A DNA stretch of 64,000 nucleotides from Prorocentrum cordatum. Lineage: Eukaryota > Sar > Dinophyceae > Prorocentrales > Prorocentraceae. Each line of letters opens with the position of its first letter. Positions within the stretch are counted from its first letter, which is position 1. The translations under genes and the position numbers were made by a program. Under the pieces are notes generated by a model that ran no database searches, was not told the origin of the DNA, and saw nothing but the letters and a program-made list of their open reading frames with translations. The stretch spans positions 174,219-238,218 of the forward strand of contig CAUYUJ010015721.1 of assembly GCA_963575745.1 (NCBI GenBank), written 5' to 3'. Positions 989-63,304 of the stretch are shown here, in pieces.

Positions 989-1020
989 CAACTGGGAGCC
1001 GGCGGCAAAACGTCAACCAG
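989..1020 (-). repeat. Left half of a terminal hairpin split by a LINE
   Basis: ACTGGGAGCCGGCGGCAAAACG then TCAACCAGG is the left stem and loop of the element hairpin. The right stem is missing. After CAACCAGG the sequence turns into the T-rich 3' tail of a minus-strand LINE, the same junction seen at 18741, 29673 and 51631. Confidence 0.75.
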
Positions 1021-2244
1021 GTTTTTGCGGTTTGCGGTCCGACCACGGGGCCCTACAGGGGCGGTCGGGTTGGTGCAGCCATCCCCTGTGGGCTGGATGT
1101 GCCCTGAAAAACGTGATACTCTTGAAGTATCTTGCAAGCAGAGCGGGCAAGTCTCGAGGCGGCCTCAAGCTCACACTGAGTAACCGTCGCATCGGGAAGC
1201 AGGCCAAAAGCCTCCTCGGCCAACGGACGGGTAAACGTGTGCAGGCAATCACTCACCCCCTCCCCAGATTGCTCACTGATGAACTCACCGTCTAGCCACC
1301 CTTCCCCCCCAGCACCTGCACTGCCAATGCCACCGTCGTACGCACCACGGATGGCGATCAATGTTTCAGTATTGTTTATATGTTGTTGAATGCTTCTGTA
1401 CCTCGATTGTAATGGTAGATGTCTGATTTCCCAAGTCAGTCGGTCGGCACGGTCATTGCCTTCACGATAGTGATGACGCCACGAATCATATCCTGTGGCT
1501 GGGCCCTGCAGCTTAAAATTTCGACAGGCGTCGTCTAACAGATCAATACCCCCCCCCCACCTGCGATCGGTATATATTGTTGCTGCAATTCCACCTTCCC
1601 CTCATCCAGTTGGTTATCAGCATGGAGTCGCCTAACAGCTCCATCGCCACCCCGCCTCGTCGCTCGAAGCGGACCTCACTTTCAAAGTTTGCCGCGAGGC
1701 GCCTGGCAATACGATCAAGCGCCGCCTGTGTATACTGTTTGTCCTCCTCCTCCTCCTCCTCCTCCTCTCTGTGTATCTGACCTCCCACCCCCTTAAAGAT
1801 AAAACCCTCCGTCATATGTGAAAATCCCGCCGCGCACAGTCGGGCCGCAGCAAACTCGCGAAAACCATGTTCACTCCAGTCGAGATGGCGCCACCAGTTC
1901 ACACCAGCAGCCTGCGCAAATAGGAAGTCCCACGGCCTGTAGCCTGTAGGTAACCTCCTCCCTGTTAGTCTGGTCATCTCCGTCCTCCTCCCACTTGCAG
2001 TAATCATAGCCTCCCTCCTCTCCGTCCACTCCCCCAATCCGCGCAGCATCGCAACACGTGAAAGAACAAAGGGCCTTGACATGTCATCCGACACAGGTGG
2101 TGCTGGTGTCGGAGCCTGACCAGGCTGGGTGGTCGAGAGCCTCTGTCGTTGGCCCCGCACCGTCTCACGGAAGATCCTCGCACGCTGACGCCGATTGGTA
2201 CGCGCCTCCTCCCCCGACGCGGGCGCTAACATAGGTGCGCACGT
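1021..2244 (-). mobile_element. 5'-truncated LINE fragment in the hairpin loop
   Basis: Minus-strand non-LTR retrotransposon piece. Its 3' end, read in sense, is a CCGCAAACCGCAAAAACC tail that joins the loop of the hairpin at 989-1020. Only the region after the reverse transcriptase is present: a conserved linker domain and the permuted RNase H. At about 2245 it meets a plus-strand LINE fragment head to head, so the 5' part is lost. The family differs from LINE-A and LINE-B but has the same domain order. Confidence 0.75.
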
Positions 2245-2256
2245 ATGCATCATCAT
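1053..2256 (-). pseudogene. LINE ORF2 C-terminal region with circularly permuted RNase H, one frameshift
   Basis: Read on the minus strand from 2256. The first part carries a linker domain shared with LINE-B (LRGLGEW, then GYRPWDFLF, then WWRHLDWSE), a run of eight to nine glutamates encoded by a TCC repeat, and the third RNase H motif LLGDSMLI. Translation stops at 1543, just after a run of ten C (1549-1558) that has shifted the frame. In the next frame the rest follows: REGNDRADRLTW (fourth motif), IRGAYDGGIG (first motif) and TVTQCELEAA (second motif). All four catalytic acids are present in the order 3-4-1-2. In life this would degrade RNA in RNA:DNA hybrids during retrotransposition. It is probably inactive here because of the truncation and frameshift. 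Confidence 0.75.
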
Positions 2257-2721
2257 AAAGATTCTATGGCTTCACACCCTGGGAGTTCCACGACTGGGAA
2301 TTTATCTAATGCAGTTGTGAGTTCAGCAGTGACGGAGGACGAGGAGAAACGTAAACGCGCAGATTATTTGCTTCAGTTGGCGTGTAATTTAAGGATCAGG
2401 AAATACTGTTTCCGCAAGTCTGGCTGGGTAAAACTCGTTCACTCTTTCACGGCTGCCACGCTGTATCGCCTTATGGCCTCGGGTGCCCAGGAAAAGGCTG
2501 TGTTGCTTGAAGCGCTTCTTCGGGATCGCGCGAGACTTGGCCCGATAGCCAATTTGACCCATCTGTCGACGGATATCAGAGACTTTAGTCACCACAGACT
2601 CGTTCCCAAAAGCGTTACGGAAGCCATGAGATACGTGACGAATTTTCCGGATGAATGGATGCGTCGCAATGTAAAGAACTACCGCGAGTTGGCGGCCAAG
2701 GCGGGATACCCAATTGATTGA
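2245..2721 (+). CDS. Unrecognised ORF in LINE fragment (158 aa)
   Basis: Start ATG at 2245, overlapping by 12 bases the start of the divergent minus-strand ORF at 2256. The protein is basic and mostly helical in appearance, with a charged segment (EDEEKRKRAD) near residue 35 and no motif I can name. It stops in an ATTGATTGATTGATTT run. The reading continues in the next frame as the RNase H remnant, so it is probably the upstream part of a broken LINE ORF2. Function unknown. Confidence 0.4.
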   Translation: MHHHKDSMASHPGSSTTGNLSNAVVSSAVTEDEEKRKRADYLLQLACNLRIRKYCFRKSGWVKLVHSFTAATLYRLMASGAQEKAVLLEALLRDRARLGPIANLTHLSTDIRDFSHHRLVPKSVTEAMRYVTNFPDEWMRRNVKNYRELAAKAGYPID

Positions 2722-3041
2722 TTGATTTAGTGATTGCACATAGGCTGACATGGTTGGCCAGAACCAGAAATTGCTACGTTGGATTCCATACTTCCCTTAT
2801 TGAACATGCGAGCAAAACAAAACTAGACGGCCTCCGTGGATTCTTCGACGGAGGTCGCTCTGTGGAGGGATGTGCTGCAGAATGGTGTTTAGGTTTGTGT
2901 GTACACGGGACGTGGCTGTTCGTGGCGGAGGAAGCTTTCTCGCTTGATGCCTCTGCTTCTGTCGTGTTCTGTGTGATGTTTGCAGCGCAACGGCTCTGTA
3001 TGGCCGTGGTGCACGTTTTGGGTAGCCTCTTTCATCTCTAA
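2718..3041 (+). pseudogene. Decayed permuted RNase H fragment
   Basis: The protein keeps the family pattern but has lost catalytic residues. AHRLTWLARTRNCY corresponds to ADELTHHAREGNCY of the 37.8 kb copy, with Asp replaced by His. LRGFFDGGRSVEG keeps the first-motif Asp. The helix that should read ELSAAERL reads VMFAAQRL, so the Glu is gone. The order of motifs (fourth, then first, then second) is the same permuted order. Clearly non-functional. Confidence 0.6.
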
Positions 3042-3242
3042 CCTGTTCCTACACCTTTGCAATTTCACATGTCGTGCTGCATCCTTTTCCTTGTTCCTGC
3101 ATCCTATTCCGATGCCTATGCCTCAGTGGCTCGGCAGTGTGATGATAAGAGATGCCTTCTCTAGCTACCCTGTGCTCCGTTTGGGAGTTTTAGGGCTCAG
3201 CTGTCACAGCTGTCCGCGCCCTGACTCAAACTCAAAAATCAA

Positions 3243-3270: not shown

Positions 3271-3456
3271 GATGTCGGTGCCTCTACAAGGAGGCCTTAC
3301 AGAAGACACAGAACGAAGATAAACAAGCTAATTGGTGAGACTGTACACCCTCTCAATGTACCCGCGACTCAAAGCACGGGCGCGACCTGAAAGCTAGCTC
3401 GTCACAATCGCGGAGTCGCCTAGAATCTGAAGACCGAAACCAGGGATCGCCGAATC
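3271..3456. other. Unassigned sequence
   Basis: About 190 bases between the hairpin half and the decayed reverse transcriptase. I see no ORF, repeat unit or RNA fold I can support. It may be the 3' part of the decayed LINE that follows. Confidence 0.3.
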
Positions 3457-4988: not shown

Positions 4989-5007
4989 CCCTCTCCAGGG
5001 CCCCGGA

Positions 5008-5407
5008 ACTGGGAGCCGGCGGTAAACCGTCAACCAGGTTACCGCCAGGACCCTCGTAGAGCTCTTAATAGACCAGGTCGGTTCCGAGATAACAGCAGAA
5101 AAACGTTTGTCAATAACAGCTTCAAAAATAAAGAAATGTTGTTTTTGGTCGTACACAATGTTGGTTCCCCGCAGTCTTTTGATCGAAGTATTGCAGCTAG
5201 GGTCCTAAGGACTGCACCATCGAAAGCGTCATGATTCACTGCATAGAATAAAAATTCAAATTTGCTAAACGAATTTCGAAATCTCTCGTCATCTTCCGAA
5301 AACCGACCGCAGGTCACCACATTGTCCGCCCGGCCCGGGTTGGCCAACTAGCCGCACCCCGCGCCGGAATTCCTCTAGCTCATCGATGCCGAAGAGCTCT
5401 ACGAGGT
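5008..5407 (-). mobile_element. Complete A-type Helentron-like element (about 400 bp)
   Basis: A full unit with a reconstructable empty site. Left flank CCCCGGA and right flank ATTACTCTTAAGC rejoin to the B-element end seen intact elsewhere (CCCCGGAATTACTC). The insertion is therefore at A^A on plus, T^T in element sense, without target duplication. The hairpin is at 5016-5048. CCCTCGTAGAGCTCTT follows it and the inverted AAGAGCTCTACGAGGT closes the unit. Non-coding. Confidence 0.75.
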
Positions 5408-8735: not shown

Positions 8736-9742
8736 CTGGGCGCCGGCGGTAAACCGTCGACCTTGGCTACCGCCGGGAAACTCGTAGAGCTTCCTAGCTC
8801 GACTTAAGTTGAGAAAACCGACAGCACCTACCAACATTCCGACTGATAGTGAATATTTTTTGACCTCTGAATGCGACAGGCGAACGCGTCTGATGTCTCT
8901 GAATCGATTCCTGTGATTACCAGCCTGCAGCCCCCCTACAGCCCGATTTAAGTGCAGGAAACCGAGAGCACCTCAGGATGACTCGAACAATAATAGTTTC
9001 GCGAACTCGGCAGCAGACAGAGTTCCGAGCTCTGGATTCGAAAGGCGGACGCACCTGATGTCTCCGAATCGATTACAGTGATTACCAGCCATGCAGCCCC
9101 CCCACAGCCCGAGTTCAGTGCAGAGAACCGACAGCATCTCTCAAGATGACTCGAATCATACGAATAGTTTCGCGATTCTAGATCGGGCAGCACACCGAGT
9201 TCAGAGCTCTGGATTCAACAGACAACGGCCACTGATGATTCTGAAGCAGATTCTGTACGCATCAGCTCTGTAGCTGTCCTGTAGCTCGAGTTAAGTACAG
9301 AAAACCGAGAGCGTCTGTCAAGATGACTCGAATAATACGAATAGGTTTGCGGACATAGCTCGGTTAGGAGACCGAGTTCAGACCTCTGGGTTCAACAGGC
9401 GAACGCGCCTGATCATTCTGCATCGATTAGCTGTGCTTACCAGCTCTGTAGCTGTCCTAAAGCTCGAGTTATCTTGAGAAAACCGTCACCGCGTGACAAG
9501 ATGACTCGAAACGGCTGATCCCGCACGTGTGCTTTTTGGCAGTAAAAGGTACCCGATCGAGCTGAGATCAAGATGGCGAGCGGGAATAAGATCGAATATC
9601 ACGGGAAAAAAAAAACTAGAGCTCTAACGAATGGTTGAATTTCGAGAACAAAATTTTCAACCGACCAAAAGTCACCAAAAGGTCCGTCGAGATTTTAGCG
9701 CCCCGGAATTAGTGGGCGCAGGCGGTAAACCGTCAACCTTTG
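8736..9742 (-). mobile_element. B-type element, followed by a hairpin half split by a LINE
   Basis: Hairpin about 8743-8776, then GAAACTCGTAGAGCTTCC and an array of roughly 177-bp units with the unique end block from about 9500. At 9719-9742 the left half of the next hairpin is seen (CAGGCGGTAAACCGTCAACC) and runs into the T-rich tail of a LINE fragment. Non-coding. Confidence 0.65.
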
Positions 9743-10204
9743 TTTTTTTTGCGTCTTTGCTGGGACCATCTTGGCCACTAAGGCCAGGTCCAACAAAGTA
9801 TCAGGCGGAACAGAGCCTCTTATTTAACACGCAAGCAGTCAGCTCTTATACCACACAGCGAAGCAGAAGGAATAAAGAGAATCACATGCCGCAATGACAC
9901 AATCAAACGCAAAGCACACAAAAGACAAACGAATGAGTCAGTGAACAGCGAAGCTGTTGGAATAAACAAGAACACAGATAAAGAAGAAACAATGTGTGAC
10001 TTATCACTGCGAATGATCAAAGAAGGTCTGCACTACCTGTGGGAGCACATCGCATATGCGCTCCGCCGCTGATAGTTCCGTATCTGTAACGTAACAGTGG
10101 CGCTTGGTGGCAGACACCAAGCCGCAAGATACACATCCTTGAAAATGATGTCGGTCCGCGAGAAGATATATTTGTTTCGCAGACCAATCTGAGAGCATAT
10201 AATC
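9743..10204 (-). mobile_element. Short 5'-truncated LINE 3' end in a hairpin loop
   Basis: Its sense 3' tail (GACGCAAAAAAAACAAA) joins GGTTGACGG of the hairpin loop. On the right, CGCCGGGGGGACTCGTAG resumes the hairpin stem and element start. It contains the last helix of an RNase H and about 260 bases of 3' untranslated sequence. The untranslated part shares ACAGCGAAGC and CTCTTATT words with the inserts at 51.6 and 54.0 kb. Confidence 0.65.
10004..10204 (-). pseudogene. C-terminal fragment of a permuted LINE RNase H
   Basis: The minus-strand frame ends VTDTELSAAERICDVL followed by about 18 residues and a stop at 10004. In LINE-A, LINE-B and the 37.8 kb fragment the same helix (TVTECELSAAEALL, TVTEAELSAAERL) is the last element of the protein, so this piece fits the end of a permuted RNase H. 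The other motifs were lost by 5' truncation. Upstream residues in this frame come from the flanking B array and are not part of the gene. Confidence 0.6.
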
Positions 10205-10671: not shown

Positions 10672-10707
<36 letters not shown>

Positions 10708-18580: not shown

Positions 18581-18741
18581 ACCACCCCAAACTTATCTCT
18601 TTGTCCTTTCTGGCCGGGTCGGCCAACTAGCTCCACGCCGAGCCGGAATTTCTCTAGCTCATCGATGCCGAAGAGCTCTACGAGATACTAGCTCTCCAGC
18701 GCGCCGGAACTGGGAAACGGCGGTAAACCGTCAACCAGGTT
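18581..18741 (-). mobile_element. A/B fragments ending in a hairpin half
   Basis: Short pieces of A (ACTAGCTCCACGCC to GAGCTCTACGAGAT) and of a B end block (ACTAGCTCTCCAGCGC). A hairpin start follows (ACTGGGAAACGGCGGTAAACCG), broken after CAACCAGG by LINE-A copy 1. Confidence 0.65.
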
Positions 18742-29640: not shown

Positions 29641-29673
29641 TAACTTGGCGCCGGCGGTAATACGTCAACCTGG
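29641..29673 (-). repeat. Hairpin left half split by LINE-A copy 2
   Basis: CCGGCGGTAATACG then TCAACCTGG (29651-29673), followed by TTTGTTTTGTTTTGTTT, the tail of the second LINE-A copy. Same loop position as copy 1. Confidence 0.8.
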
Positions 29674-33527: not shown

Positions 33528-33561
33528 CGTGCCTCCTGAACAGGTGATGTCGGGCGCAAGC

Positions 33562-33873
33562 TCAACATGTGTATCTGCACTCCTCCTTCCACCTCCGATA
33601 AGTTGTTTCGATTGTTTTCAGCATCTCAAAAGCCACCTCCAGTGAACGTTTCCCCGATCTGTTCGGAAAGTACGCAAAGACAAGAAAGATACACGGATGA
33701 CGCAAGCACACAATAGCAAGACGAGCATGATTACACCAAGAGCGAACTATGTTGCGACAAGACTTCCCCCTCAAAGCTACGGAAGCCTTCCTGTCACTTG
33801 AGTAAACTAGATACCAGCCAAGCAGCTGGATTGAATTGGACGGTAAGTGTTCACACTCCTGTAAACAGAACAC
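33562..33873 (-). pseudogene. LINE-A copy 2: endonuclease N-terminal part, deleted at its active site
   Basis: Carries FCLQECEHL and FAYFPNRSG but stops before GDFN. Compared with copy 1, 29 bases are missing between two ACAT words near 33568. This removes the GDFN motif and shifts the frame, so this copy cannot nick DNA on its own. Confidence 0.75.
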
Positions 33874-33962
33874 TTGAACAGCCGTGAGAAAGAAGTGCCC
33901 TCACGCAAGCAAATCCCCGATCTGCTGTAGCCCCTTGTTTCATACGATTCTGGGTGCCTAGC

Positions 33963-38388: not shown

Positions 38389-38469
38389 TTGAGTACAGAA
38401 AACCGACAGCATTGGTGCAAATGACTCGAAGAATACAAATAGTTCTGCGGACCTAGCTCGAGTAGCAGA

Positions 38470-43208: not shown

Positions 43209-43610
43209 ACCTCGTAGAGCTCTTCGGCATCGATGAGCTAGAGGAATTCCGGCGCGGGGTGGAGCTAGTTGGTCGACCCGGCCTGGGCGGACAATCTGAC
43301 GACTTTGGGTCGGTTTTGCGAAGATTTGAAAAATATTTGACCATTCATTTTGAGAAAGCAGATTTTTCGCACCTGTAGTGGGTTACGCCGCGTCTGCCAG
43401 TCAAATTCTCAGGTCCGTAGGTGCAGTATTACTATCAAAACACTTGGCGGAACCGTCCTTGGATAAAAACATAAAAAACGTGATTTGTCTAGTTTTTGGG
43501 GTCTTGCTCCAGACTCTTCCTTCATGTGTACCGAGGGGCGCCGTGCGAGAAAAAAGCTCTACGAGGGCCCCGGCGGTAACCTGGTTGACGGTTTACCGCC
43601 GGTTCCCAGT
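43209..43610 (+). mobile_element. Complete A-type element, plus sense (402 bp)
   Basis: Follows directly on the AAGT end of the previous element. 5' ACCTCGTAGAGCTCTTCGG, body, inverted AAAAGCTCTACGAGGG, hairpin 43570-43602, 3' GGTTCCCAGT. An exemplar of the unit in its own sense. Non-coding. Confidence 0.75.
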
Positions 43611-46001: not shown

Positions 46002-47015
46002 TTGCTCCAAAGGGCGACTGAGGAGCTGACGACGACGACGACGAGACAGCGGCCGGGCGCAGGGGTAACCTCTTGTGTCCGGGCCGGGGGTGGTGACCCA
46101 TCCTCGGCCGAATCGGGGGCAGGGGTAGCCTCTTGCCTCCGGGTCGCCGGTGGCGACCCATCGGCGGCCGAATCGCCGGCGCCGGACAGGGCCAGCACGA
46201 TGGTCGTTGCCTTCTCGAACGCGCAGGCGAAGAACACCTCCACGGAGACTGTCAAAGCCAGAACGCTGCACAATGCCTGCGCCATGCGAGTCCAGAAGTA
46301 CATCACCGCGAAGCTGCGGCCGGGGGGCACGCAGAAGAGGCTGAAGTGGTTGTGGGAGCACGTCCGCGTTCTTGCCATCGAAGAGATAAGCATGGTGGCA
46401 GCCGCGCTGTACAACGCGCTGGACCTTCGCGCCTGCCACGGACGCAGTGACACGCACGACGTGCACGAGTCCAACTACCAGCGGCCACACCACCACTTCG
46501 GGCGCGCGCCTATCGTGTTGCACCTCGGAGATTTCCTGCAGCTGAAGCCCACCGGCAGCATTGGCCTCCTGACGGACGTGAACGAGCGCCTGGACGACGA
46601 CGAGTCGCACAGGTACGCGGATCCGCCGACGGTGGAGATCCAGCACGCCATCAAGGTCTTCTCTCAGATCCCCTGCGTCTTCGAGCTGAAGGGCACAAAG
46701 CGCTTCGAGCCTGGGGGCCCGCTGATCACGCTCCTGGGCTGCATGCGCGAGGGCAAGCCCTTCCCACCGGAGGTCTGGTCCGCCTGGGAGAAGACGTTGG
46801 CCACGGACAACCGCTGCGTCCTGGACCCTCGGCACCAGCAAGAGAACTTTCGGCTCGGCTACGGCATGGGCATCTACTGGGAAACGCTTGCGAGGTGGAT
46901 GAACACGCGTGCTCGTCGCGACGCTCGGCGTCTGTGCGTGCCCCTCGTTTCCTGCAGGCCGTTGACGAGTGCGGCACGATTCAGGGCGATCCCGACGCGG
47001 GTCGGCGCCTCCTGA
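46002..47015 (+). pseudogene. PIF1-family DNA helicase, N-terminal part
   Basis: Superfamily 1 5'-3' DNA helicase fragment. ARTLHNACAM (86-95) matches the segment after the Walker A strand. VLAIEEISMV (123-132) is the Walker B motif with Glu for the usual first Asp. LHLGDFLQLKP (173-183) is the next helicase motif. The Walker A GxxGxGKT is absent: residues 1-66 are a low-complexity run with a repeated SCLRVAGGDPSAAES phrase. The gene is therefore 5'-truncated or an upstream exon is missing. The frame is lost near 46949 and continues in the frame of the next entry. GC-rich, unlike the A/B repeats. Confidence 0.7.
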
Positions 47016-47770
47016 ACGCCCCGAACATGCACAAGACGGGGGACATCCACGGCGTCTTGCCGGCCCACGTCGGCATGGAGGTGCGGTTCACGGCAGCGCA
47101 GGAAGAGCTGAAGAAGAAGTTGGGGCTCGTGCAGGAGCAACGGGCCATCATCGCGTCTTTCGAGTTCCACCACGAGGACGAGCAGCGGCACGAGGAGCGC
47201 TCGGCAGGCCAGCTCTTTCGCCCCCGCTTCCTACCGCAGGGATTCTGGCTGCAGGTGCACGGCTTCAAGGAGTCTCCGATCTACCAGGAGGTCGCCGAGG
47301 TGCTGCGACAGGGCGCCGAAGACGCCGACGACGACGGCCAGGCCGAGGCGCGGGCGCGGAGATTGCTGATGTTCAGGCCCAGCGAAAAGGAGTTCACATG
47401 GCAGAGCTCGGGGCCGCACAACGTGCGCCGCTCGGGGTTCACCCTGACCCACGCGCCCTACCTGACCTCCACGCTGTCGCAGGGCCAGACGCTGCGCAAG
47501 GGCGTCACCATCGACTGCGCGAGAGACGAGGACGCTGGCCGCACGGGCATGTCTGACGAGCAGTGGTGGCTGCACCTCTACGTCATGCTCTCCCGCGCCA
47601 CGTGCATGTGGAACATGCTGATCCTGCGGCCGCCGCCGCGGGAGTTCCTGGAGCGAGGGCCGCCAGCGTCCTTGCAGAAGGCGCTCCTGGAGTTCGACAA
47701 GAGAGCGGTTTTGTCCAGGGCGGAGGCGAAGCAGCTCGCGGCAGAGTTGGGCTTCGTGCTGCCCGCCTGA
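46895..47770 (+). pseudogene. PIF1-family DNA helicase, C-terminal part
   Basis: Continues the helicase after a frame change of +2 (or -1) near 46949, where FLQAVDE picks up from RRLCVPL. It contains LLNAPNMHKTGDIHGVLPAHVGMEVRF (about 39-65), LTSTLSQGQTLRKGVTIDC (190-208) and LYVMLSRATCMWNMLILRPP (228-247). The last two are the C-terminal helicase motifs that close the ATP and DNA sites in PIF1 and RecD-like proteins. The stop is TGA at 47768-47770. Rolling-circle elements encode a helicase of this family next to their 3' end, and the hairpin lies about 490 bases downstream in the same sense. No Rep nuclease domain is visible. Confidence 0.7.
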
Positions 47771-51607: not shown

Positions 51608-51632
51608 CCGGCGGTAAACCATCAACCAGGTT
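51608..51632 (-). repeat. Hairpin left half split by an insert
   Basis: CCGGCGGTAAACCATCAACC then AGG, followed by TTTTTGTTGCGGAC. Same loop position and a similar T-rich tail (sense CCGCAACAAAAACC) as the LINE fragment at 1021. Confidence 0.75.
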
Positions 51633-52058
51633 TTTGTTGCGGACTTTGCGGTCGACTGTGCAGGCTTTCCAGCCTAGTCGGAGCAAGGAGCGGACGTATC
51701 CAAACAGGCAAGGCGTGAGTGAGCACAAACTCTTATTCACATCAAACCAATCCGAAATACGCATGTTCAACCCGCCGTATGACAAGAGGCGTATGCTCAA
51801 CGTCACATGTGAAGTAATCAACGAATTAGACGGGGAAACAACCCGTGGAAGAACGTCACCTGAAGAATATGAGGGGCTCCTGCCCTTTACACACCTGAAG
51901 CGCTTAGTGGGGCCCACAGCGGGCCGTAGAGCCATCATGGCTCCAGCGAGAGGTCAAACAGAGAGATAATGTGAGGAAAACAAGAACAGGTGAGATACCA
52001 GCAATACAGCCTTCGCTGTTCTAAACCGAATGTTGCATACAAGTGCGCACGAATAGCT

Positions 52059-53222
52059 TCATCCCAACTTGTCGAAACTCCTCGGGCGTCCGAAGAATAT
52101 TATTCGGTAATCGCTGCACTTGGAAACCTCAAGAAACTTGGCCATCTCGGCGCGGTTCATTTGTCCTGTCAAGAACCTGTGCACCTCGAAGAATCCTAGA
52201 AGATCCTCCAGCGTCGCTTGCACATTCTGGAGCATCTCATACAGTTTCCGAGCATAATCTGTTTGGGCCTTCTTTGTAGGGAACCCACGTTCTGTCACCA
52301 GCTTATCAAACAAATCCATTCCGTTCTTTAAATACTGGATCGCATTCAACTCGTTGATGCTGGCAACAGCGTCAATCCACGCTTTGACATCGGCAATGGT
52401 GGCCTGAGAGCACGTCGATGTCCCCTTGACCTTGTCACGATCTCTCCCTCGAGTCCTCTGGCGCGACTCCTTCGATACCTCATTGAGCGCGACGGGGCGA
52501 TTCAGACACCCCTGGGACGCTCCTGACAAGGCGCGGCTATCAGAATCAGACTGCACGTTCGGAGAGGACTCCGCACTCGAGGGTGCCTCCAGCTCCTCCT
52601 CCGACGCCACAGTCACTTCCCCAAGAAGAACTCCTGAAGCTCCTCCCTCCATCCCAACGACACTATCTGTCTGACAGCCGACTTCACAATGAAAGTCCGC
52701 AACATCAACCGTCTGCACTCCAACATCAACCAGCGATTCAGAAGCCTGCACTCCAATATCTACATCAACCAGCGATTCAGAAGCCTGCATACGGCAAGAA
52801 AGATTCTCCGAAACAGTCTTAATGTCAGCCTCCTCCTCCTCCTCCAAACTGCGTTTAACAACAGGTGCATCGCGCAACAAGAGATAATCTAGAACCAAAT
52901 CGGCAGTCGCCCGCTCCAGCCCTGGTGGTGGGAGACACGTAGGTGGCACCAAACCATCCAGAGGCAAACGAATAGGTAAATGCACACAGTATCCGTTTTG
53001 AACAGCCAGCGCCCGACGCATAATGCGAGCACTTTCACTCCGTACGTGTGGCATAACGAAAGATTGCAGAGACTGCCTCGGAAGCACCCAGCAAAACAAA
53101 TCAATTGAAGACAACTCAAGGCGATCAAACGTGTCAAATGAATGGCAGCGCAATATCACTCTAGGCGACAAACGTGTGAAACAAATCACTTGAAGACCAC
53201 TCAAGGCGATCAAACGTGTCAA
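52059..53222 (-). CDS. Unrecognised 387-aa protein in the hairpin-loop insert
   Basis: I do not recognise the family. The N-terminal third has hydrophobic and Pro-rich stretches (PTCLPPPGLERA). The middle is acidic with a near-exact repeat, QASESLVDV, followed by DIGVQAS, DVGVQTV and EVGCQTDS. The VG(V/C)QT phrases resemble dynein light chain (LC8) binding sites, which is a resemblance only. The C-terminal third is helical and basic-acidic mixed (KAWIDAVASINELNAIQYL to TGQMNRAEMAKFLEV). The first residues come from a local tandem duplication, so the true start may be further in. The frame is open over its full length, suggesting recent function. Confidence 0.5.
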   Translation of the reverse strand: MTRLIALSGLQVICFTRLSPRVILRCHSFDTFDRLELSSIDLFCWVLPRQSLQSFVMPHVRSESARIMRRALAVQNGYCVHLPIRLPLDGLVPPTCLPPPGLERATADLVLDYLLLRDAPVVKRSLEEEEEADIKTVSENLSCRMQASESLVDVDIGVQASESLVDVGVQTVDVADFHCEVGCQTDSVVGMEGGASGVLLGEVTVASEEELEAPSSAESSPNVQSDSDSRALSGASQGCLNRPVALNEVSKESRQRTRGRDRDKVKGTSTCSQATIADVKAWIDAVASINELNAIQYLKNGMDLFDKLVTERGFPTKKAQTDYARKLYEMLQNVQATLEDLLGFFEVHRFLTGQMNRAEMAKFLEVSKCSDYRIIFFGRPRSFDKLG

Positions 53223-53265
53223 ATGAATGGCAGTGCAATATCACTCTAGGCGACAAACGTGTGAC
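53101..53265. repeat. Tandem duplication of about 80 bases
   Basis: CTCAAGGCGATCAAACGTGT is present twice, with the following AATGAATGGCAG(C/T)GCAATATC and CTAGGCGACAAACGTGTGA, at an offset of about 86. It lies at the 5' end of the 387-aa ORF and supplies its first ATG (MTRLIALSGLQ and MTRLIALSCLQ in two frames). Confidence 0.8.
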
Positions 53266-53346
53266 TCCCTGACGCGCACTCGATCCCACTGGAGGTTACC
53301 CAGGCAGAGGGGATCAAATGTCAAGCGCCTTGAGCCGAGATTTTCT

Positions 53347-54032
53347 TGAGCCAGGCACCTCGTAGAGCTCTTTTCTTGCACAGCGCTCCTCTAAACACAT
53401 GAAGGAAGATTCTGAAGCGAGAGCCTAAAAACTCGAAAAATCACGTTTTTTTTCGGTTTTCATCCGAAGTCGGTTCCTCCAAGTGTTTTGATAATAATAT
53501 TGAAGCTAGAGACCTACGGATTCGACTGACAGACGCGGCATAACCCACTACAGGTGCGAAAAATCTGCTTTCTCAAAATGAATTGTCAAATATCTTTCAA
53601 ATATTCGCAAAACCGACCCAAAGTTAACACATTGTCCGCCCCGGCGGGGTCGACCAACTAGCTCCCCCCCGCGCCGGAATTCCTCTAGCTTATCGATAAC
53701 GAAGAGCTCTACGAGGTTTTATTCAGATCAAAAGACTAGGAGGAACCGATGTTCTAACAAAACCCGAAAAAACGTGTCTTCAGTTTTCTAACTCATATCA
53801 ACGAACTGACTTCTCCTGTTAGCTGGGAACTGATCTGGTCTTTTCAGACCTCTACGAGTGTCCCGGCGGTAACCTCGTTGACGGTTTACCGCCGGCTCCC
53901 AGTTGGCTCACCCGCCCAGGACGGACAAGGTGGTAACTTTGGATCGGTTTGTCAAAAATTTGAAAGAGAGAAAGCAGTTTTCCACGCCGCGCATTGGCAC
54001 ATAAACTGGCGCCGGCGGTGAACCGTCAACCA
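53347..54032. mobile_element. A fragments of changing orientation, hairpin, split hairpin
   Basis: A minus-sense A body (53347-53715) is followed by a plus-sense piece ending in a hairpin at 53863-53895 and CTCCCAGT. A short plus-sense A start follows. From 54008 comes the left half of a GTGA-type hairpin (CCGGCGGTGAACCGTCAACC at 54012), entered by the next insert. Orientation changes twice within 700 bases. Non-coding. Confidence 0.55.
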
Positions 54033-55335
54033 AGTCTGCGATGTCTGCGTCGGCCGACTCGAGCTCCCAAGGGAGCAGGCCAGGACACAGAGAACCTAAA
54101 CAGCGAAGCTGCAAAGATTAAAGCAGAGATGCATCAAACAGCGAAGCTGTACAGAAATGCACAAGACTGCAAGTACACGAGAAAACAACTAACAATATAA
54201 TGAGTGAAGCAATGCAGGCCATAGATATGGAAGCAAAGCTGGAAGCAGTGAGAGACCATACAGTAACCACTGGTTTATACGGCGATTACCGTCTCAACAC
54301 CACTGAGACAAACACGAAACTAAGAGAACTAAAATAGCGAGTGCGCTTCAAAGCAATGCGAGACCATGCAGTAATCACATATAGCGATTACCGTCTCAGC
54401 ACCACTGGAAGACCATGCACGTGAAACACAACGTCGAAATGTGGACTAGATAACGAATTAGACGCGCAACATACAGATGGAGCCAAGACACCCACCACTA
54501 CTTAGAGCGAATGCGGGCTCTTATCCGAACAAAGTGAAGATCAGGCGAAGCTCTTATTCAACACAGGTGCATGCACGACAACACACACAGGCATGAATAA
54601 AGGCAACGCAATGACAAATCACAGTAGTTCTAACTCGAAGTATGTGGAAATCAAATGCAATGAATTCTGAACTCCACTCGAGGCGACGTATGACCTCAAT
54701 ATCAAAGACCTCAATATCAAGTACAATGAATTCTGAGCTTCACTCGAGGCGAAATATGAAATCGGATGCCCAAAGACCTCAATATCAAGATACTCCGATG
54801 TCACAAAACTGTCAAAGTACTGAAGAAACTCGAACTGCAACTCGAACTGCAACTTCTAACTCACGAAAGAAACGATTCCAACCACCCCTCGAAGGTTCCC
54901 ACTGCGTTGTGAATAAGAGTACTCAGACTGCGACCAAAGTCAAAATTGGATACGTGCTGAGAGCAACTCGTACTAGATAACAAATGCGGCAAGCACAATC
55001 ACAAGCGGCCTGGAAGTACAAGCAGACAACGCAACAAGTACAAACAAGCGGCCTGGAAGTACAAGACAACAAATGCAACGAGTACGATCAAAGCAAGCGG
55101 CCTATGCACCTGCTCCAATAGGAGCTGTCTCACTTGACACAACAGAGAACCTGGCACCTATCGTCTGTAGGCCCACGGAGAGGAGGTCGTCGCAGCCGAC
55201 GAAGTACCCGAAGATATGGGACGGCCCGTACACGAGATGCACAGTGGAGTACGATACGTGTGTGCACAGAAAACCTGTCCGCACAATGCGGCTCGAGGAG
55301 GCCACCGACGGGCCAGGTCGCCGCTGAGCTCCCCG
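54033..55335 (-). mobile_element. Non-coding 1.3-kb insert in a hairpin loop
   Basis: Starts after CAACC of a hairpin loop and ends at GCGCCGGGAACCTCGTAGAG, where the D element resumes. It contains local duplications: GCGATTACCGTCTCA twice near 54280 and 54380, GACCTCAATATCAA three times near 54690-54800, and CAAGCGGCCT(G/A) three times near 55005-55105. ACAGCGAAGCTG words at 54100 and 54139 also occur in the insert at 9743. No long ORF; likely the 3' untranslated part of a LINE family or a non-autonomous derivative. Confidence 0.5.
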
Positions 55336-55732
55336 AGCGCCGGGAACCTCGTAGAGCTCCTTGCACGCATAAAAGTGCTCAGAATCGAAGCAGACAGCTT
55401 CTCGGAGCATTTCTCGAAAAAGCGTCAACTTTACATTTTTCGATGTCACTCTGATGTTGGTTCCCGCTAATTTTTGGATAGTAAAACTCTCTCTGAATAG
55501 CTGAGCTGCTCTGGAAACGAAGTTTATATGCCAATGCTTGGCGTAAAAATCTGCTTTTTGAAAATACAGGGTTAAATATCTTTCAACTTTTGACACAACC
55601 GGCCAAAAGAAACCACTTTGTCCGTTCTGGTCGGGTCGGCAAACTAGCTCCACCCCGCGCCGGAATTCCTCTAGCTCGTCGATGCCGAAGAGCTCTACGA
55701 GGTATTACTCTTAAGCTTCCAGCAACTGGGCG
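55336..55732 (-). mobile_element. D element body resumed, with A/B end pieces
   Basis: AACCTCGTAGAGCTCCTTGC and a D body (CTGATGTTGGTTCC, ATATGCCAATGCTTGGCG) to GAGCTCTACGAGGT at 55703. A B end piece (ATTACTCTTAAGCTTCCAGCA) follows up to the next hairpin. Non-coding. Confidence 0.6.
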
Positions 55733-57399: not shown

Positions 57400-57490
57400 C
57401 CGGCGGTAAACCGTCAACCTTTCTTTTGCGTATTGCGTGCCGCCACAGCAGGGTCGGGTCACCGCCCAGGCGATAGCCACACAGGGAGGC

Positions 57491-58828
57491 CTAGTATCCT
57501 GCCAAATGCAGGCATTCCTCCACTCCCAAAAGGAGTTGTCGGGCAGACTCTAACTCAGCTGCAGTGATAGTGCTCGCGGGGGGAAGGAGGAAAGAGGAAG
57601 AGGCCACGTTGGGCTCCCACACGCCACTCGGAAGAGTGACAGGATATTCAGCAACAGAAGAGGAGCACAAATGAAAATCAATCTGCCAGCCACAGCCTAC
57701 GCCCAGATAGGATCTTCCACCATCGAAGCTTCCCCGAATGGCGTCGATCAGAATAGCGTTAGCTTTAACATGGGATAGGAAATCATGCCTAAAACGTGTT
57801 CTACAAATGCCCTGCCTAGCTCTGTGTGTTAACTCATCCGCAGCAGTATTGTCCTCTCTGTATACCCACTTGAAGATATGTCTCCCAAGACAGGCCGCCT
57901 GCACACCACATCTCTTAGCTAGAATGTCTAACTTATTCTGAATGCCGCCCACAATCTTGTCATAATGCACATTGGCAGTAAAATACAAGCCTTGGATCCA
58001 CCGCACAACGCATTGAGAGTCTCCCTTCAGTTCAATGGCAATCCTTCCCACCTGGAACTCCCACTCCGTGTAATCCTCCAATATCTTAGCATACCGTTTG
58101 GACAACACCTCCTCCTTCTTCCTGCTAAGCTCCTCCGAAAGTACCTCCTCCTCCCTCTCTTCCATAGGCTTCCAAGGAATAGGATCTTTAAGAACCAGGA
58201 AATCAGAAACACCAGGAACCTGAAGAAGCATAAAAACTTGACGAGCAAACTTGACCCAGGCCTCCTCTGACCATTCCAGAACATGGTACCAGTACTTCCC
58301 TCCCACAAGCTCAAAAGGTGTTCTCCACGGGCGCATGCCGATAGGAGCTCCGCCAGTCCTCACACGAGTCCCAGCACGTCCAGCCTGGCTTCCTAAAGAT
58401 AGTATCAGATCATCCCGCCTGGATTCCCACTCCCCTCCTCCGTGCAACATGGACAGTCGTGCCTGCAGGTAGCCGTTGACAGCAGTGCCCGTGTCCACCA
58501 CCGTGGGCTGATTGTAATAGCGGGTTGGGTCCTCGAACCTGTCTCTGAGTCTCGCCGTGTTCTGAGAAAGTTGGGTCCTCTGACGTTTGGCCTCATTCAT
58601 GCACAACGTTTTTCTTTTCCGTCGGTTCATGGGCTCGGAGGGCGTCGTATCATCAGCAGGAGCACCAGGAGCATACGAGGGAGGCGGCACCAATTGTGAG
58701 CCACCCACCACAGAAATCTCCTCCACGCCACCTCCGTCCCCTGCCAAAACAAGACAATGCAATATCCTTCGCCCATTTCCACTGCCGATATAGGAAGACC
58801 TGTGCGAGTGGAGGTCTGCCAGCTTCAT
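57491..58828 (-). CDS. LINE-B permuted RNase H module (445 aa frame)
   Basis: Separate frame, +1 relative to the reverse transcriptase and overlapping it by 176 bases. A linker domain (SMLHGGGEWESRR about 126, GMRPWRTPFELVGGKYW about 164-180) is shared with the fragment at 1053-2256. The RNase H acids follow as Asp270 (LKGDSQCVV), Asp331 (REDNTAADELTH), Asp369 (RGSFDGG) and Glu425 (ITAAELESA): motif order 3-4-1-2. In LINE-A the same domains are fused in frame to the reverse transcriptase, so the overlap is either a frameshift mutation near 58800 or a programmed shift. No separate promoter or splice signal is evident. Confidence 0.8.
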   Translation of the reverse strand: MKLADLHSHRSSYIGSGNGRRILHCLVLAGDGGGVEEISVVGGSQLVPPPSYAPGAPADDTTPSEPMNRRKRKTLCMNEAKRQRTQLSQNTARLRDRFEDPTRYYNQPTVVDTGTAVNGYLQARLSMLHGGGEWESRRDDLILSLGSQAGRAGTRVRTGGAPIGMRPWRTPFELVGGKYWYHVLEWSEEAWVKFARQVFMLLQVPGVSDFLVLKDPIPWKPMEEREEEVLSEELSRKKEEVLSKRYAKILEDYTEWEFQVGRIAIELKGDSQCVVRWIQGLYFTANVHYDKIVGGIQNKLDILAKRCGVQAACLGRHIFKWVYREDNTAADELTHRARQGICRTRFRHDFLSHVKANAILIDAIRGSFDGGRSYLGVGCGWQIDFHLCSSSVAEYPVTLPSGVWEPNVASSSFLLPPASTITAAELESARQLLLGVEECLHLAGY

Positions 58829-61688
58829 AAAAAGCTTGCCTCCCTCTTTTGTACATGCGCGACATGAATACAGCCCACCCCTCCTCCTCCCTCTTCGCTC
58901 TCCACGTCATCCTGCTCAACATCTTCCCCTCCTCCTTGTGTATAAATGCAATCGTAGAACTGTCAACTGTGGCTCCTTCCAAGCCGAAAAGAAACTTAGA
59001 TCTCACTCTAGATTCATATCGTGCAAATTTATTCTTCCAAGCAATCCTCCTGGAGGTGTAAAACGCTCGATCATTCCAGAAAGCACGAATAGCTTTTGCC
59101 ATACGGTATCGCACATCAACATGATCCTTGAAATTCCTCGCAATCTTAGTCCCCAGCACAATAATTTCATCCACCTGCGGAATAGTGATGTTCTCGGGGA
59201 GAGACACATTGGGCCCCCTGGACATACCTGGCGGGAACAACGTCACCATGAGAGGCTCCGTCACACCGGTGGTAGTACCCACGTCCATGAACTCAAGACT
59301 GCTCTGCTTCCAACGAAAGCCGTGGTCGTGGAGAGCCCACGTCAACTGCAGAATCATTTTAGCCAATGTGGGGCGATCAGGAGCCGTGAGAAGCACGTTG
59401 TCCGCCCATATGAAGTGACTCACAACAATACCTCCTGCTTCACCCGAGAGTACAACACCGACAGCATCTCTCGCCCAAGCAGACGTAATGTCACCAAACA
59501 TGACCAGGGATTGAGCAGTCCACAGATCAGGTCCTTCCTTAGAACCTGTCTTCACACACGTTGTCCAAGGGAGCGTATCAGTGCAGACACCCTCAAACTG
59601 AAAGACCGCCTCATTACCAACAGAGTTCTCAATAAGACCATACCGAAGCTCCACATCAACACTCAAACGCTCAAGTGTAGAAGAAGCAACTTGGACAGTG
59701 AGCGAGTCAAATGCAGTGGCAACATCCAGGGAAGCAACAACAATATTCTCCTCCTTCCCCCACAGTCTGGCATGTCTGCACATCGCCTTCAATCCCGACG
59801 TTACCTCATGTGTCTTACGACCTTGCTGGAAACCATACAAACACAGAGACGGAGCAACAACAGGAGCAATAGACACCAAATGCGAATTGAGTAGAATACA
59901 CAAGCAGCCCATGTACCATGTGTTAACGACAGAATTCACAGCAAGAGTACGACTGTCATCAAACCTCTTATCCTTGCCGTTCTTCAACATAATAGATGCA
60001 CGGATGAACTTCCAAGACTCAGGTGCCTCTGCCATTCGCCAGAAGCGTCGCTGGAAGCAGTCAAGCACCACACGGAGTGCTTCCCAGGACAAAGAACGTA
60101 ACATGCGTGCACTGATACCATCAGCACCTACCGCCTTGCCTTCACGAAGCCTGGAACGAGCACGACAGAGAACATGCATGGTAATAGGAGAAGAAGTGTG
60201 AGTGCTGCGCGCACGTGCCTCATCAGCTTGGACCCGAAGCTGCTCCAGAGTCGCCATATTCATAGCAAGACGTTCCGACTTAGAGTACTTAGCCCTGACC
60301 ACCCTCGTCATATCCTCCTTCCACTTACTGCGGTCTTCACACCATTCCCCGTCGATCATCATAGAGTTAGTAACAGTCTTAGTCTTGACCCCATCCCGAT
60401 AACGATAAAGAAGTAGACGTTTCATGAACTGCCTTCGAACACGATTCCAACGACGACGACTATCCTTGAACGTAGCCTCATCGATCTGACCAGATTTCCA
60501 GAGTTTGTGAACTCTGTAGTGGGCCTCTTTCACCTGAGCTTCCTCCTGGGTCAACTTCGGGATGAGCGAAGCCGATTTAAAGCCATAACAGCGTTTGTCG
60601 GCAACAGCCCCCTCCTTCAATCGTGATTCCAGGTCGGCTAGAGAAATGGATCTCCACCTAGTATGCCAGATCACCCTTCCCTCAGACTCCTCCGTGCAGT
60701 ACTGATTTTTGCGTTTTTTGTTTTGGCCGCAACCCCCACCAGACTTCCACCCAGCAACCTGTGTAACGGCCATATCAAACTCTCTGCACTGTTTCACCTC
60801 CTTACCCTCCAGCACAAACCACGAGGCGAACGATCGACTGCCAGTGGCCTTCGTCCTACCAGAGGACTTCCCCCGCAGCAAACATGGGAGATCAAAACAT
60901 ATCATCTTGTGGTCACTCCATTCAGTGTCTCGAGAGCCAGGAGGGTGCGCATACATAACGTGCAACTTAGAACACATAACATGAGTCTCCCAAGTCACAG
61001 AACACGCAACATAGTCAATGACGTGCTTAGTCCTAGCACCTCCACCACACCAGGTAAACTCACGGTCAATGAATGTGTTGATCAGCTTCAGACGTAGCTG
61101 GGCCATACAAACACACCAGGCACGCGCACATGCACCCTGCAACACATTCCTCTGCCTCTCCTCCCTCACAGTACGCTCGTTCACACCACCACCAGAGATA
61201 CGAAGTCGATCGATCTCAACATGAGGCTGCACTTCAACATTGGCGTCGGCACAAACAACAACATCATGAATACTGTACTTTTGACGCATGCGCACCACAG
61301 CACTCGATAATTCAAGAAGAACGTTCTGGTACAGATGGAACGTGGCCTGGTACCCCTCAGACGTTGTCCCAAAGAATCCTTGCTGAGGAAGATACACGCT
61401 AGCATAGATGAATGCGCCCACTTCTGGCCCACGGAAGGCACAGACCGCAAATCTTCTACCAGCAGCGTGTCCCAAGAAACAGGAGTTGAGAGTAGACGAG
61501 AATAGTACACCTGCTTGGCCCTCAATCGAGCCACTGTCAAGCTTCACTTCAGCTGAGCTGCGATAGTGAAAACCAGCCTCATTCAACGTATCACGTCTGA
61601 GAAACTGGCACTCCTGGAGCCCGACAAGTTGCACTCCCAGCTCACGCAAGTAAGGAAGAGCAGATAGGGAAGTAGCATCACTCATCAT
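58653..61688 (-). CDS. LINE-B ORF2: EEP endonuclease and reverse transcriptase (1011 aa)
   Basis: Nicks target DNA and reverse-transcribes the LINE RNA there. Endonuclease: GLQECQFL (23-30), VVVCADANVEV (143-153, with the GDFN motif changed to ADAN but Asp and Asn kept), HVIDYVACS (222-230) and WSDHKM (257-262). Reverse transcriptase: GADGIS (521-526), motif A SLDVATAFD (653-661), motif B KTGSKEGP (713-720) and motif C IWADNVLL (760-767), again with Asn for the second Asp. The thumb (IIVLGTKIARNF) follows. The frame is uninterrupted for over 3 kb, so the copy is young. The last 50 or so residues are probably out of frame: the native protein should pass into the frame of the RNase H module. 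Confidence 0.85.
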   Translation of the reverse strand: MMSDATSLSALPYLRELGVQLVGLQECQFLRRDTLNEAGFHYRSSAEVKLDSGSIEGQAGVLFSSTLNSCFLGHAAGRRFAVCAFRGPEVGAFIYASVYLPQQGFFGTTSEGYQATFHLYQNVLLELSSAVVRMRQKYSIHDVVVCADANVEVQPHVEIDRLRISGGGVNERTVREERQRNVLQGACARAWCVCMAQLRLKLINTFIDREFTWCGGGARTKHVIDYVACSVTWETHVMCSKLHVMYAHPPGSRDTEWSDHKMICFDLPCLLRGKSSGRTKATGSRSFASWFVLEGKEVKQCREFDMAVTQVAGWKSGGGCGQNKKRKNQYCTEESEGRVIWHTRWRSISLADLESRLKEGAVADKRCYGFKSASLIPKLTQEEAQVKEAHYRVHKLWKSGQIDEATFKDSRRRWNRVRRQFMKRLLLYRYRDGVKTKTVTNSMMIDGEWCEDRSKWKEDMTRVVRAKYSKSERLAMNMATLEQLRVQADEARARSTHTSSPITMHVLCRARSRLREGKAVGADGISARMLRSLSWEALRVVLDCFQRRFWRMAEAPESWKFIRASIMLKNGKDKRFDDSRTLAVNSVVNTWYMGCLCILLNSHLVSIAPVVAPSLCLYGFQQGRKTHEVTSGLKAMCRHARLWGKEENIVVASLDVATAFDSLTVQVASSTLERLSVDVELRYGLIENSVGNEAVFQFEGVCTDTLPWTTCVKTGSKEGPDLWTAQSLVMFGDITSAWARDAVGVVLSGEAGGIVVSHFIWADNVLLTAPDRPTLAKMILQLTWALHDHGFRWKQSSLEFMDVGTTTGVTEPLMVTLFPPGMSRGPNVSLPENITIPQVDEIIVLGTKIARNFKDHVDVRYRMAKAIRAFWNDRAFYTSRRIAWKNKFARYESRVRSKFLFGLEGATVDSSTIAFIHKEEGKMLSRMTWRAKREEEGWAVFMSRMYKRGRQAFYEAGRPPLAQVFLYRQWKWAKDIALSCFGRGRRWRGGDFCGGWLTIGAASLVCSWCSC

Positions 61689-61730
61689 TCTGATGTTCCA
61701 ACAGGCCGCCCTCAGCGGGCGGGTACGTCG

Positions 61731-63047
61731 TCACACGGAATCTCCATTCAGCAGCGTCTGCCAGGGCCCAGGAAGGATCTTGTCATCGAACTCAATCACC
61801 GATTCAGGCCTCAGAGTCCAACCATGCCTGGGATCCCAGGTTCCCAAACAGATCTGCCCACCGGTTTCAGGATAGCCCCAAGCCCAAGACATCACAGGAG
61901 ACCCATACTGAATTTTGACACGATTGTTTTTCTTCAGCGGGTTCCTCACACGAAAGTATGTAGCTGTAAGTTTACTGCCAGCCCTCACCTGTCCCTCACG
62001 CCAAGGCTCACACTGCACACGAATGCCGATGTACGACTGAGTAGCTGCAAGAAGGGAATCATCTCTCCAAAGGGGACCCGTGCGCGAGGAGATAACTTTC
62101 CAGAACTCCTCCCTGACCTTCCAGACAGTCTCCTTACTCGTGCCATGAACGAAGAAAATACGCAGCCTAAAGACACCGAACGGCTTGCCCTGGTACTCTC
62201 TATTAATGGCCTCACGATCAAAGATCTTCGCATTAACCTCAAACTGCGAGCCAACTTCATCTAAGAGAATCTGGATAACTCTGGTGGCCCTGGCCTCTGA
62301 CATGATGTTGCTCGTACGCGCCCGGACATCACGAGGGTCACCCGAAGTCCAGCCCGAGAGCGTCAAGTATCCAGGAACAAATGGGGTTGTGCTCCTGGGT
62401 CCTGCATTGCCTCCAAGACTCACCCGAGTAGATACAGAGGCAGCATCACTGGCCGCACCATCATTTCCTACCGTCGCTAACTGCTTCTGAACCTGAGCAT
62501 TCACCGCCTCCTGCTGCTGCTTCTGTTGCTTCACCTCCTCCCTAAGTTGTTCAAGGTCAGACTTCAAAGGTGCAACCTCCTGCTGGATCTCCTTCCTCAC
62601 CTCCTCCATATGTTCCGTCAGAGTACATTTGAGCATATCTGCCAAGTTCTGAAACTCATTACGCAGTAGACCAATAGTGACAGGTTCTTTGTCATCCGAA
62701 GCGCCCTTACCACCTATCCCAGCACGAGCCATCTTGGAGGACCTGGAAGCATCCCCCACCTCGTTTCTTTCACTGATCTGCTTCATAGAGACATCGGCAC
62801 AGGCAGCGGCAGCAGATGCAAAGGATGGAGCATGATGCATCACAAGTTGTGGTGGATGGCCAGCAGAAGATGGGTCTGTCGACATCGTATCTGCGATACG
62901 CCCTGCTTTCGAAGCTTCCAACGCCGAGAATAGAGCACGTTCGTCCTGTGTCGTATGCTCAGGGATATCGTCCCAGCCCTCAAAGTCCCAGTCGTCTTCT
63001 GAAATAACAGCCGTGATTGCAACACAACAAACACAAAGTGGCCCCAA
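61731..63047 (-). CDS. LINE-B ORF1 protein (438 aa)
   Basis: Probable RNA-binding protein of the LINE particle. It begins with a short Cys/Val-rich hydrophobic stretch (CVCCVAITAV) and an acidic segment. A Gln/Lys/Glu-rich coiled coil follows at about 140-195 (LEQLREEVKQQKQQQEAV). A conserved domain comes next, with LTLSGWT, ARATRVIQILLDEVG and FFVHGTSKETVWKVREEFW, which aligns with LINE-A ORF1. The C-terminal part has ESVIEFDDKILPGPW. The stop at 61731 is 43 bases before the ATG of ORF2. The frame is intact. Confidence 0.75.
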   Translation of the reverse strand: MGPLCVCCVAITAVISEDDWDFEGWDDIPEHTTQDERALFSALEASKAGRIADTMSTDPSSAGHPPQLVMHHAPSFASAAAACADVSMKQISERNEVGDASRSSKMARAGIGGKGASDDKEPVTIGLLRNEFQNLADMLKCTLTEHMEEVRKEIQQEVAPLKSDLEQLREEVKQQKQQQEAVNAQVQKQLATVGNDGAASDAASVSTRVSLGGNAGPRSTTPFVPGYLTLSGWTSGDPRDVRARTSNIMSEARATRVIQILLDEVGSQFEVNAKIFDREAINREYQGKPFGVFRLRIFFVHGTSKETVWKVREEFWKVISSRTGPLWRDDSLLAATQSYIGIRVQCEPWREGQVRAGSKLTATYFRVRNPLKKNNRVKIQYGSPVMSWAWGYPETGGQICLGTWDPRHGWTLRPESVIEFDDKILPGPWQTLLNGDSV

Positions 63048-63270
63048 GAGAAAAACTGGAATACAGTGTGCCAGCTAGCCACGGGATATCTGTAATAGGC
63101 CTGCCAACAATACACCAAGCAGAGAAGATGCCAGCCGCAAGCAGAGAAGATGCCAGCCGCCAGGCGCCAGCAGCCGCCGCTATCGCGAGGGTGCCGAGGC
63201 CCGAGTGGAGCGAGATGGACGGGCGCGGCCGAGGGCGGGAGGGGCGCGGCAGGGGGGGGCCACCAAGGAG

Positions 63271-63304
63271 TCCCCCGGCGGCAACCTTGGTTACCGCCGG
63301 GGGA
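63271..63304. repeat. Inverted repeat at the 5' junction of LINE-B
   Basis: GAGTCCCCCGGCGG just inside the LINE end is the perfect reverse complement of CCGCCGGGGGACTC in the resumed hairpin, with CAACCTTGGTTA between. The 14-bp arm cannot be simple target duplication. It suggests copying of the opposite strand during insertion, or insertion into an element whose left stem had this sequence. Confidence 0.7.

Follow-up and report, generated by a model that had tools for sequence, protein, structure and literature searches.

The stretch analysed here (the window) comprises 64,000 nucleotides of the dinoflagellate Prorocentrum cordatum (GenBank assembly GCA_963575745.1, contig CAUYUJ010015721.1, positions 174,219 to 238,218 of the forward strand), and our subject is a set of long interspersed nuclear elements (LINEs) that lie in it beside a recurrent hairpin. 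The core of this hairpin, GGTTGACGG, occurs 34 times in the window versus 0.4 times expected, a count that none of 100 shuffles reached, and most of these cores sit within an intact hairpin, CCGGCGGTRA-(loop)-GGTTGACGG-TYACCGCCGG-nCCCAGT. A preliminary description of this DNA had reported a 33-bp hairpin with inserts in its loop; the hairpin and the site in the loop were recovered, with the dimensions corrected to a stem of ~10 bp and a loop of ~13-14 nt. Folding of the single strand backs the hairpin, with z from -1.7 to -3.5. The genome searched has 4,128,499,153 bases in 21,875 contigs (3,562,531 bases in the source contig), and L-numbers such as L012, L032-L051 or L071 denote loci fetched from it around matches. 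It holds 28,581 exact right half-hairpins. In a set of 154 fetched copies, 92 close the loop with A-T as the innermost stem pair and 40 with G-C, and 1,325 of 1,386 stem pairs are standard versus a maximum of 1,309 in 1,000 shuffles, a level that related sequences can exceed.

Eight inserts have their 3' junctions at this core, at positions 1018, 3243, 9738, 18736, 29670, 51627, 54031 and 57419. As the preliminary description had it, all of them adjoin the same point of the hairpin in a single orientation, the core being exact at five junctions and changed by one base at three (1018, 29670 and 51627). At every junction the right arm follows the core and the left arm is absent beside it; where the 5' side is readable, the left arm is found beyond the insert (24735-24750, 35759, 53351, ~55340, ~10204 and 63282-63301). 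The claim that all eight are LINEs holds for the five with LINE protein similarity (1018, 3243, 18736, 29670 and 57419), while those at 9738, 51627 and 54031 are LINE-like by their tail and junction only.

The family that we call F1 has a near full-length copy at 18741..24734 (minus strand), with a 3' tail of (AAAC)n and a target duplication, AACCTGG, at 18735-18741 and 24735-24741. Its open reading frame 2 (ORF2; 18678..22025, minus) encodes a reverse transcriptase and a probable RNase H and reads through its own 3' junction into the target. A second F1 copy (29671..35758, minus) starts with the spliced-leader-like CTCAAGACATCTCGGCTC, and its 5' end joins a left arm ending in CCCCGG at 35759. 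Family F4 lies at 57420..63281 (minus), with a left half-hairpin of the CCAAGG type at 63282-63301 and a right half of the GAAAGG type; its open reading frame for an endonuclease-like region and a reverse transcriptase, with WADN as motif C, is found at 58653..61688 (minus). Two further inserts were delimited on their 3' side only, namely F2 (1019..2256, minus), with an RNase H region ~33% identical to that of F1, and F7 (2724..3242, plus), with an RNase H region weakly similar to that of F4 and the tail CTCAAACTCAAAAATCAA. The three inserts in which no LINE protein was recognised are F3 (51628..53350, minus), which starts with CTCAAGAAAATCTCGGCTCAAGG after a left arm ending in CCTGG, F6 (54032..55339, minus), with a left arm at 55340, and the short F5 (9739..10204, minus, boundary approximate), with the left arm CCCCCGGCG beside its 5' side.

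The reverse transcriptase model PF00078 matches two F1 copies above its cut-off (E 6.9e-13 and 1.3e-12) and F4 below it (E 2e-5). Among solved structures, F1 ORF2 is best matched by the reverse transcriptase region of L1 ORF2p (E 1e-8), and its RNase H similarity is weak (E 0.19 to an RNase H chain of a solved structure, and 0.042 in Pfam, below cut-off). An F1 endonuclease piece at 22269..22946 (minus) carries LQEC and GDFN, seen by eye, aligns with F4, and matches PF03372 with an E of 0.028, below the curated cut-off; for the F4 endonuclease neither a Pfam endonuclease match nor a solved-structure match was found. Motifs seen by eye at the N-terminus (QE, GDFN, IDY and SDH) are the ones that we take to be endonuclease motifs, and the RNase H-like region follows the reverse transcriptase; in site-specific LINEs of the restriction-like endonuclease type (R2, NeSL and CRE), the endonuclease is C-terminal. 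Motif C of reverse transcriptases is usually xADD, as in FADD or YADD. Here it is WADN in 21 and FADN in one of 26 reverse transcriptase blocks, mostly F1, the remainder having WADS, WADD or WADF and one no motif; in this tally the motif was read solely from rows that had aligned to the F4 query. The blocks lie at window positions 20181-21695, 31118-32155 and 58764-60368 and in the loci L012 and L032-L051. Protein relatives were sought in a set of 5.8 billion proteins, and none was found at E <= 0.001 among the ~8000 candidates scored per search.

Genome-wide, the 3' junction flanks of F1, F4 and F3 copies are far from random, in agreement with the preliminary description, and nearly all of those examined are adjacent to the core. 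The 20-mer at the 3' end of F1 occurs in 294 copies, of which 238 have an exact GGTTGACG within 30 bp downstream. We examined 16 of the 56 exceptions (those among 100 copies listed of the 294), and 15 of them still adjoin the core or part of it: eight are hairpins with point changes and seven have a core or part-core followed by other sequence, the remaining one (L052) having extra bases first. For F4 the core is exact at 55 of 70 copies, and all 15 exceptions adjoin the core or part of it, eight as mutated hairpins and seven as a core or part-core followed by the apparent 5' end of another insert. F3 has an exact core in four of its seven genome copies (five of the seven examined), in addition to the window copy with one changed base. 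The 3' 20-mer of F6 was found once in the genome and thus gives no genome-wide junction test. A pattern of tail plus core (CGCAAAA, 0-12 bases, GGTTGACGG) has 2,026 matches versus 11 for the reversed pattern, a control that ignores the abundance of the core; with ~30,000 cores, we estimate that chance would give some tens.

LINE blocks that had not been picked by a 3' junction were considered separately. Five of seven RNase H-like blocks in the window end at a broken hairpin (counts that omit the rows at window position 39656, L023, L024 and L025, where the end of the query that reads through had matched target sequence). In the loci fetched with F1, six of seven such LINE blocks judged are at the hairpin or core: five at a broken hairpin (L035, two in L044, L043 and L051) and one, judged by eye, at the core preceding the F1 copy of L032. 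Copies that had been selected through the 3' end of F1 or F4 are likewise left out of these counts, as is one F1 block truncated where L044 stops. The preliminary description, according to which nearly every LINE of the window has landed at the hairpin, is therefore a fair statement and an incomplete one, with two of the seven window blocks elsewhere.

The common junction could have been inherited rather than targeted, if one or a few ancestral LINE insertions had been multiplied by the element that carries the hairpin. That element is highly amplified, and some copies are indeed duplicates, as L037 and L040 have identical 5' and 3' junctions and flank and amount to one event counted twice. 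Within F1, the variety of 5' starts already contradicts a single ancestor: the 11 shortened copies in fetched loci have 11 different alignment starts, and nine more are near full length. Tail length, loop subtype and 3' flank also vary among copies of one family, the loop subtypes on the left and right of seven inserts match, and F1 and F4 use the same site with reverse transcriptase regions that are 31% identical. Because 5' start, tail, loop subtype and flank differ, the copies are not one duplicated event, as had been stated at the outset; a single-ancestor outcome was not found in the copies examined, a single ancestral event was rejected, and multiplication of a few insertions strikes us as very improbable. 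We give even less credence to random insertion followed by survival in dispensable hairpin copies only. Neutral sites do hold more insertions in any genome, but a 4.1-Gb genome presumably offers vast neutral DNA besides the hairpins, and the near single-base precision of the F1 and F4 junctions, together with the choice of loop by family, is not a product of survival; random insertion with survival was rejected on these grounds.

F1 and F4 use different loop variants. Among the first 100 listed of the 238 exact F1 copies, the loop is CCAGG in 48, CCAAGG in 27, CCTGG in 15, CAAAGG in three and another in seven, and among the 55 F4 copies it is CCAAGG in 27, GAAAGG in 17, CAAAGG in nine and another in two, the CAAAGG call being partly ambiguous owing to the A-rich tail of F4. 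When the seven and two other loops are left out, the ratio of six-nt to five-nt loops is 30/63 for F1 and 53/0 for F4 (p = 1.6e-18). GAAAGG, the commonest type in empty sites (31 of 104), is absent from the 100 F1 copies (p = 8e-11). These p values serve as guides, as the copies are related by descent and some of the empty sites were taken from the vicinity of LINE loci.

At the 5' side, seven inserts have the same loop subtype on the left as on the right; the left core lies directly at the LINE in four of them (window position 24735, L044, L048 and L050), and a short unaligned stretch comes between in the others (L041, L043 and L051). The matching subtypes give target duplications of ~6-12 bp. 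Nine F1 copies in the loci are near full length; of these, L037, L040, L042 and L046 join a left arm ending in CCGG to CTCAAG, and L039 and L051 have the core on the left; the window F1 copy at 29671 and F3 likewise join CCGG or CCTGG to CTCAAG. Target duplication, 5' truncation and a 3' tail are present in many copies, not in all.

CTCAAG is followed by ACATCTCGGCTCTAG in F1 or, one A later, by AAATCTCGGCTCAAG in F3, which match CCATTTTGGCTCAAG at 11 of 15 places, a comparison made with no chance control. The 5' ends at window positions 35738-35758 and 53328-53350 and in the F1 copies of L033-L051 resemble spliced-leader relics (CTCAAG plus a degenerate CCATTTTGGCTCAAG). Because these ends match the relic pattern of the dinoflagellate spliced leader (DinoSL), LINE RNAs may be trans-spliced; a GG overlap would then serve to connect the copy with the left arm. 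A motif like GAGCnGCATTGTGCnG recurs, in varying form, near presumed 5' ends of different families (L071, L072, L075, L082, L083 and window positions 54032-55339). We had also considered that CCGCCGGGGGACTCC at the F4 5' end might be a fold-back of the target; this was dropped, because L071 and L082 have 5' ends of a similar kind after the core.

Taken together, we consider it highly probable (about 0.9) that several LINE families, probably of the apurinic/apyrimidinic endonuclease (APE) type with reverse transcriptase and RNase H, use target-primed reverse transcription to insert at one constant position within the 3' terminal hairpin of a Helitron2-like transposon that is very abundant. The sequences themselves show the fixed point and orientation, independent events, a far-side left arm or duplication in many copies, varied 5' starts and the difference in loop preference between F1 and F4. 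In the mechanism that we propose, the endonuclease would make a bottom-strand nick near CAACC(W)GGT^YACCGCC, where loop and stem meet, and the freed 3' end would serve as primer on the A-rich tail of the LINE RNA. A cut in the top strand would lie ~6-12 bp further on, often at TTGA^CGG, giving rise to the duplication, and the RNA copy of many full-length inserts would be joined by its spliced-leader-like end (GGCTCAAG) to the left arm at CCCGG via the GG overlap.

A rival reading is that the endonuclease recognises the extruded hairpin, as a cruciform or single-stranded loop, and not the linear sequence. The insertion point is the loop/stem border of a hairpin whose innermost pair appears structurally constrained, and handling of branched DNA is described for the R2 protein in the part of PMC6895275 consulted, both of which fit recognition of the folded form. 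In L039, however, two head-to-tail F1 copies are separated by CCAGGTTGA alone, and in L032 the tail of another LINE is followed by the core, a few bases and then F1; at these sites, and likely at the seven F4 and some of the F1 exceptions with a second insert or other sequence beyond the core, one arm would have been absent when the later insert entered. Moreover, it is the letters of the loop, and not the fold alone, that are selected. Such tandem inserts could also have come about by unequal exchange between short cores, though this is less likely. Because the later insert of a tandem pair seems to have gone into a site from which one stem arm was already distant, an intact hairpin is probably not required and the structure itself probably not what is recognised, and we regard reading of the extruded form as rather improbable. 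Recognition would instead be that of a linear half-site, consisting of the loop and one arm, since second inserts went into sites whose two arms were already apart.

Several observations weigh against targeted insertion at the hairpin, or against parts of the scheme. Two RNase H-like blocks of the window, at ~3271-3738 and 37850-38353 (minus strand), and the LINE block of L047 lack a hairpin junction. Extra sequence separates tail from core in L052, and only CCAGG of the core is retained in L065 (F1) and only CCAAGG in L077 (F4). The examined set covers 16 of the 56 F1 exceptions and five of the seven F3 copies. At the 5' side, three full-length F1 copies (L033, L036 and L038) have other sequence at their end and no left arm directly there, and the window F4 copy combines CCAAGG on the left with GAAAGG on the right (63201-63301), which one clean duplication does not explain. 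Finally, the endonuclease and RNase H matches fall below the Pfam cut-offs, and nicking is a step that we infer from sequence.

The element that carries the hairpin is intact at 43209..43610 (plus strand), where 402 bp run from a 5' end ACCTCGTAGAGCTC to a 3' end composed of GAGCTCTACGAGG, the hairpin and CCCAGT. A second intact element of 400 bp lies at 5008..5407 (minus), with an empty-site match at one mismatch. Copies are mostly 380-402 bp long, begin with ACCTCGTAGAGCTCTTCG or a close variant of it, and end in GAGCTCTACGAGG, the hairpin and CAGT. They have asymmetric inverted repeats and a 3' hairpin, only the 3' end having been examined for hairpins. The base to the left is T in 18 of 21 copies. 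With ends set at ACC..CAGT, empty-site matches elsewhere in the fetched sequence were found for nine of 16 copies at <=1 mismatch and for 14 of 16 at <=3; shifting the 3' end one base earlier gave 0/16 and 2/16, and shifting the 5' end one base earlier gave 1/16 and 5/16. Junctions with a neighbouring element account for some of these matches, and the counts come with no chance control. The element is thus found to insert beside T without target duplication. A transposon with terminal inverted repeats was rejected as the target, given the lack of target duplication and a hairpin at one end only in the copies examined. Other families with the same 3' end have other interiors, many with 177-bp repeats; such direct repeats fill many hairpin-ended elements of the window (5495-17500, 25470-28240, 37636-44430, 55930-57330 and 63370-64000).

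In these features the target is similar to a Helitron2 element at its 3' end, but no Rep protein was tied to it. It might instead be another single-ended repeat with a terminal hairpin, in keeping with the lack of a Rep (HUH) domain tied to the hairpin and with a 3' end, CAGT, that is neither CTRR nor a Helitron2 end given in the consulted part of PMC5148889. Against this stand the asymmetric inverted repeats, the hairpin beside the 3' repeat, the insertion mostly after T and the absence of target duplication, all of which fit Helitron2 as described there, and we hold the other identity to be unlikely. One or more fragments of a PIF1-like helicase (46002..47770, plus; PF05970 E 3.7e-5, below cut-off, in the first open reading frame only) lie upstream of an intact hairpin at 48257, and a possible role is that of the autonomous partner of the hairpin element. 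No Rep domain was seen with these fragments in window positions 46002-47770.

The LINEs probably gain a safe target that exists in tens of thousands of copies, and the Helitron-like element probably bears the cost, as its 3' end is broken. A race at the sequence level is conceivable, though we place it slightly below even odds: the letters of the loop would diversify under a structural limit, endonucleases would have split into specialists on different loop variants, with inserts stacked at one site, and the LINE would be a parasite of a parasite, breaking the 3' end of its host transposon. The system would offer a sharply testable natural example in which one genomic parasite targets another, and a test case for the specialisation of parasites on parasites. 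As one genome holds hundreds to thousands of near base-precise natural integrations with target variants, the specificity of LINE nucleases may be read from it without a screen. The system also suggests new sequence-specific nickases that act together with reverse transcriptases.

In functional class, F1 and F4 work like site-specific LINEs of the APE type, and it is by such features that they are set beside Tx1 and R1. In Xenopus, Tx1L inserts into the DNA transposon Tx1D. The present case is alike in that a LINE, here probably of the APE type, is aimed at one site inside another mobile element; it differs in that the site is the loop of a Helitron2-like terminal hairpin and is used by several LINE families, two of which choose different loop variants. 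Genome-wide data support insertion by several independent LINE families, in a site-specific manner, at a transposon-like terminal hairpin, and the suggestion that it is a new kind of target holds in part, with Tx1L in Tx1D as a precedent: the hairpin loop as target and the split of loop variants look new, and a literature search of limited scope found no report of LINEs aimed at a Helitron hairpin. R1, TRAS and SART1 are APE-type site-specific LINEs of ribosomal DNA and telomeric repeats. They share with our families a fixed target and orientation and a multicopy refuge, whereas here the target is a transposon-like end and not a host repeat, the reverse transcriptase carries WADN and some 5' ends look derived from a spliced leader. 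The Tx1 and R1 clades are given as APE-type target-specific groups in the consulted part of PMC4640811. For Helitron2/Helentron, asymmetric inverted repeats, a terminal hairpin and insertion next to T are described (PMC5148889, in part), and our target has all three; unlike them, it has a 3' end of CAGT, a ~10-bp GC-rich stem and no linked Rep-helicase, and serves as a LINE target. Lastly, dinoflagellate retrogenes with DinoSL relics begin with CTCAAG followed by a degenerate CCATTTTGGCTCAAG (PMC12014239, in part), and the same arrangement is found here on LINEs, not on host retrogenes.

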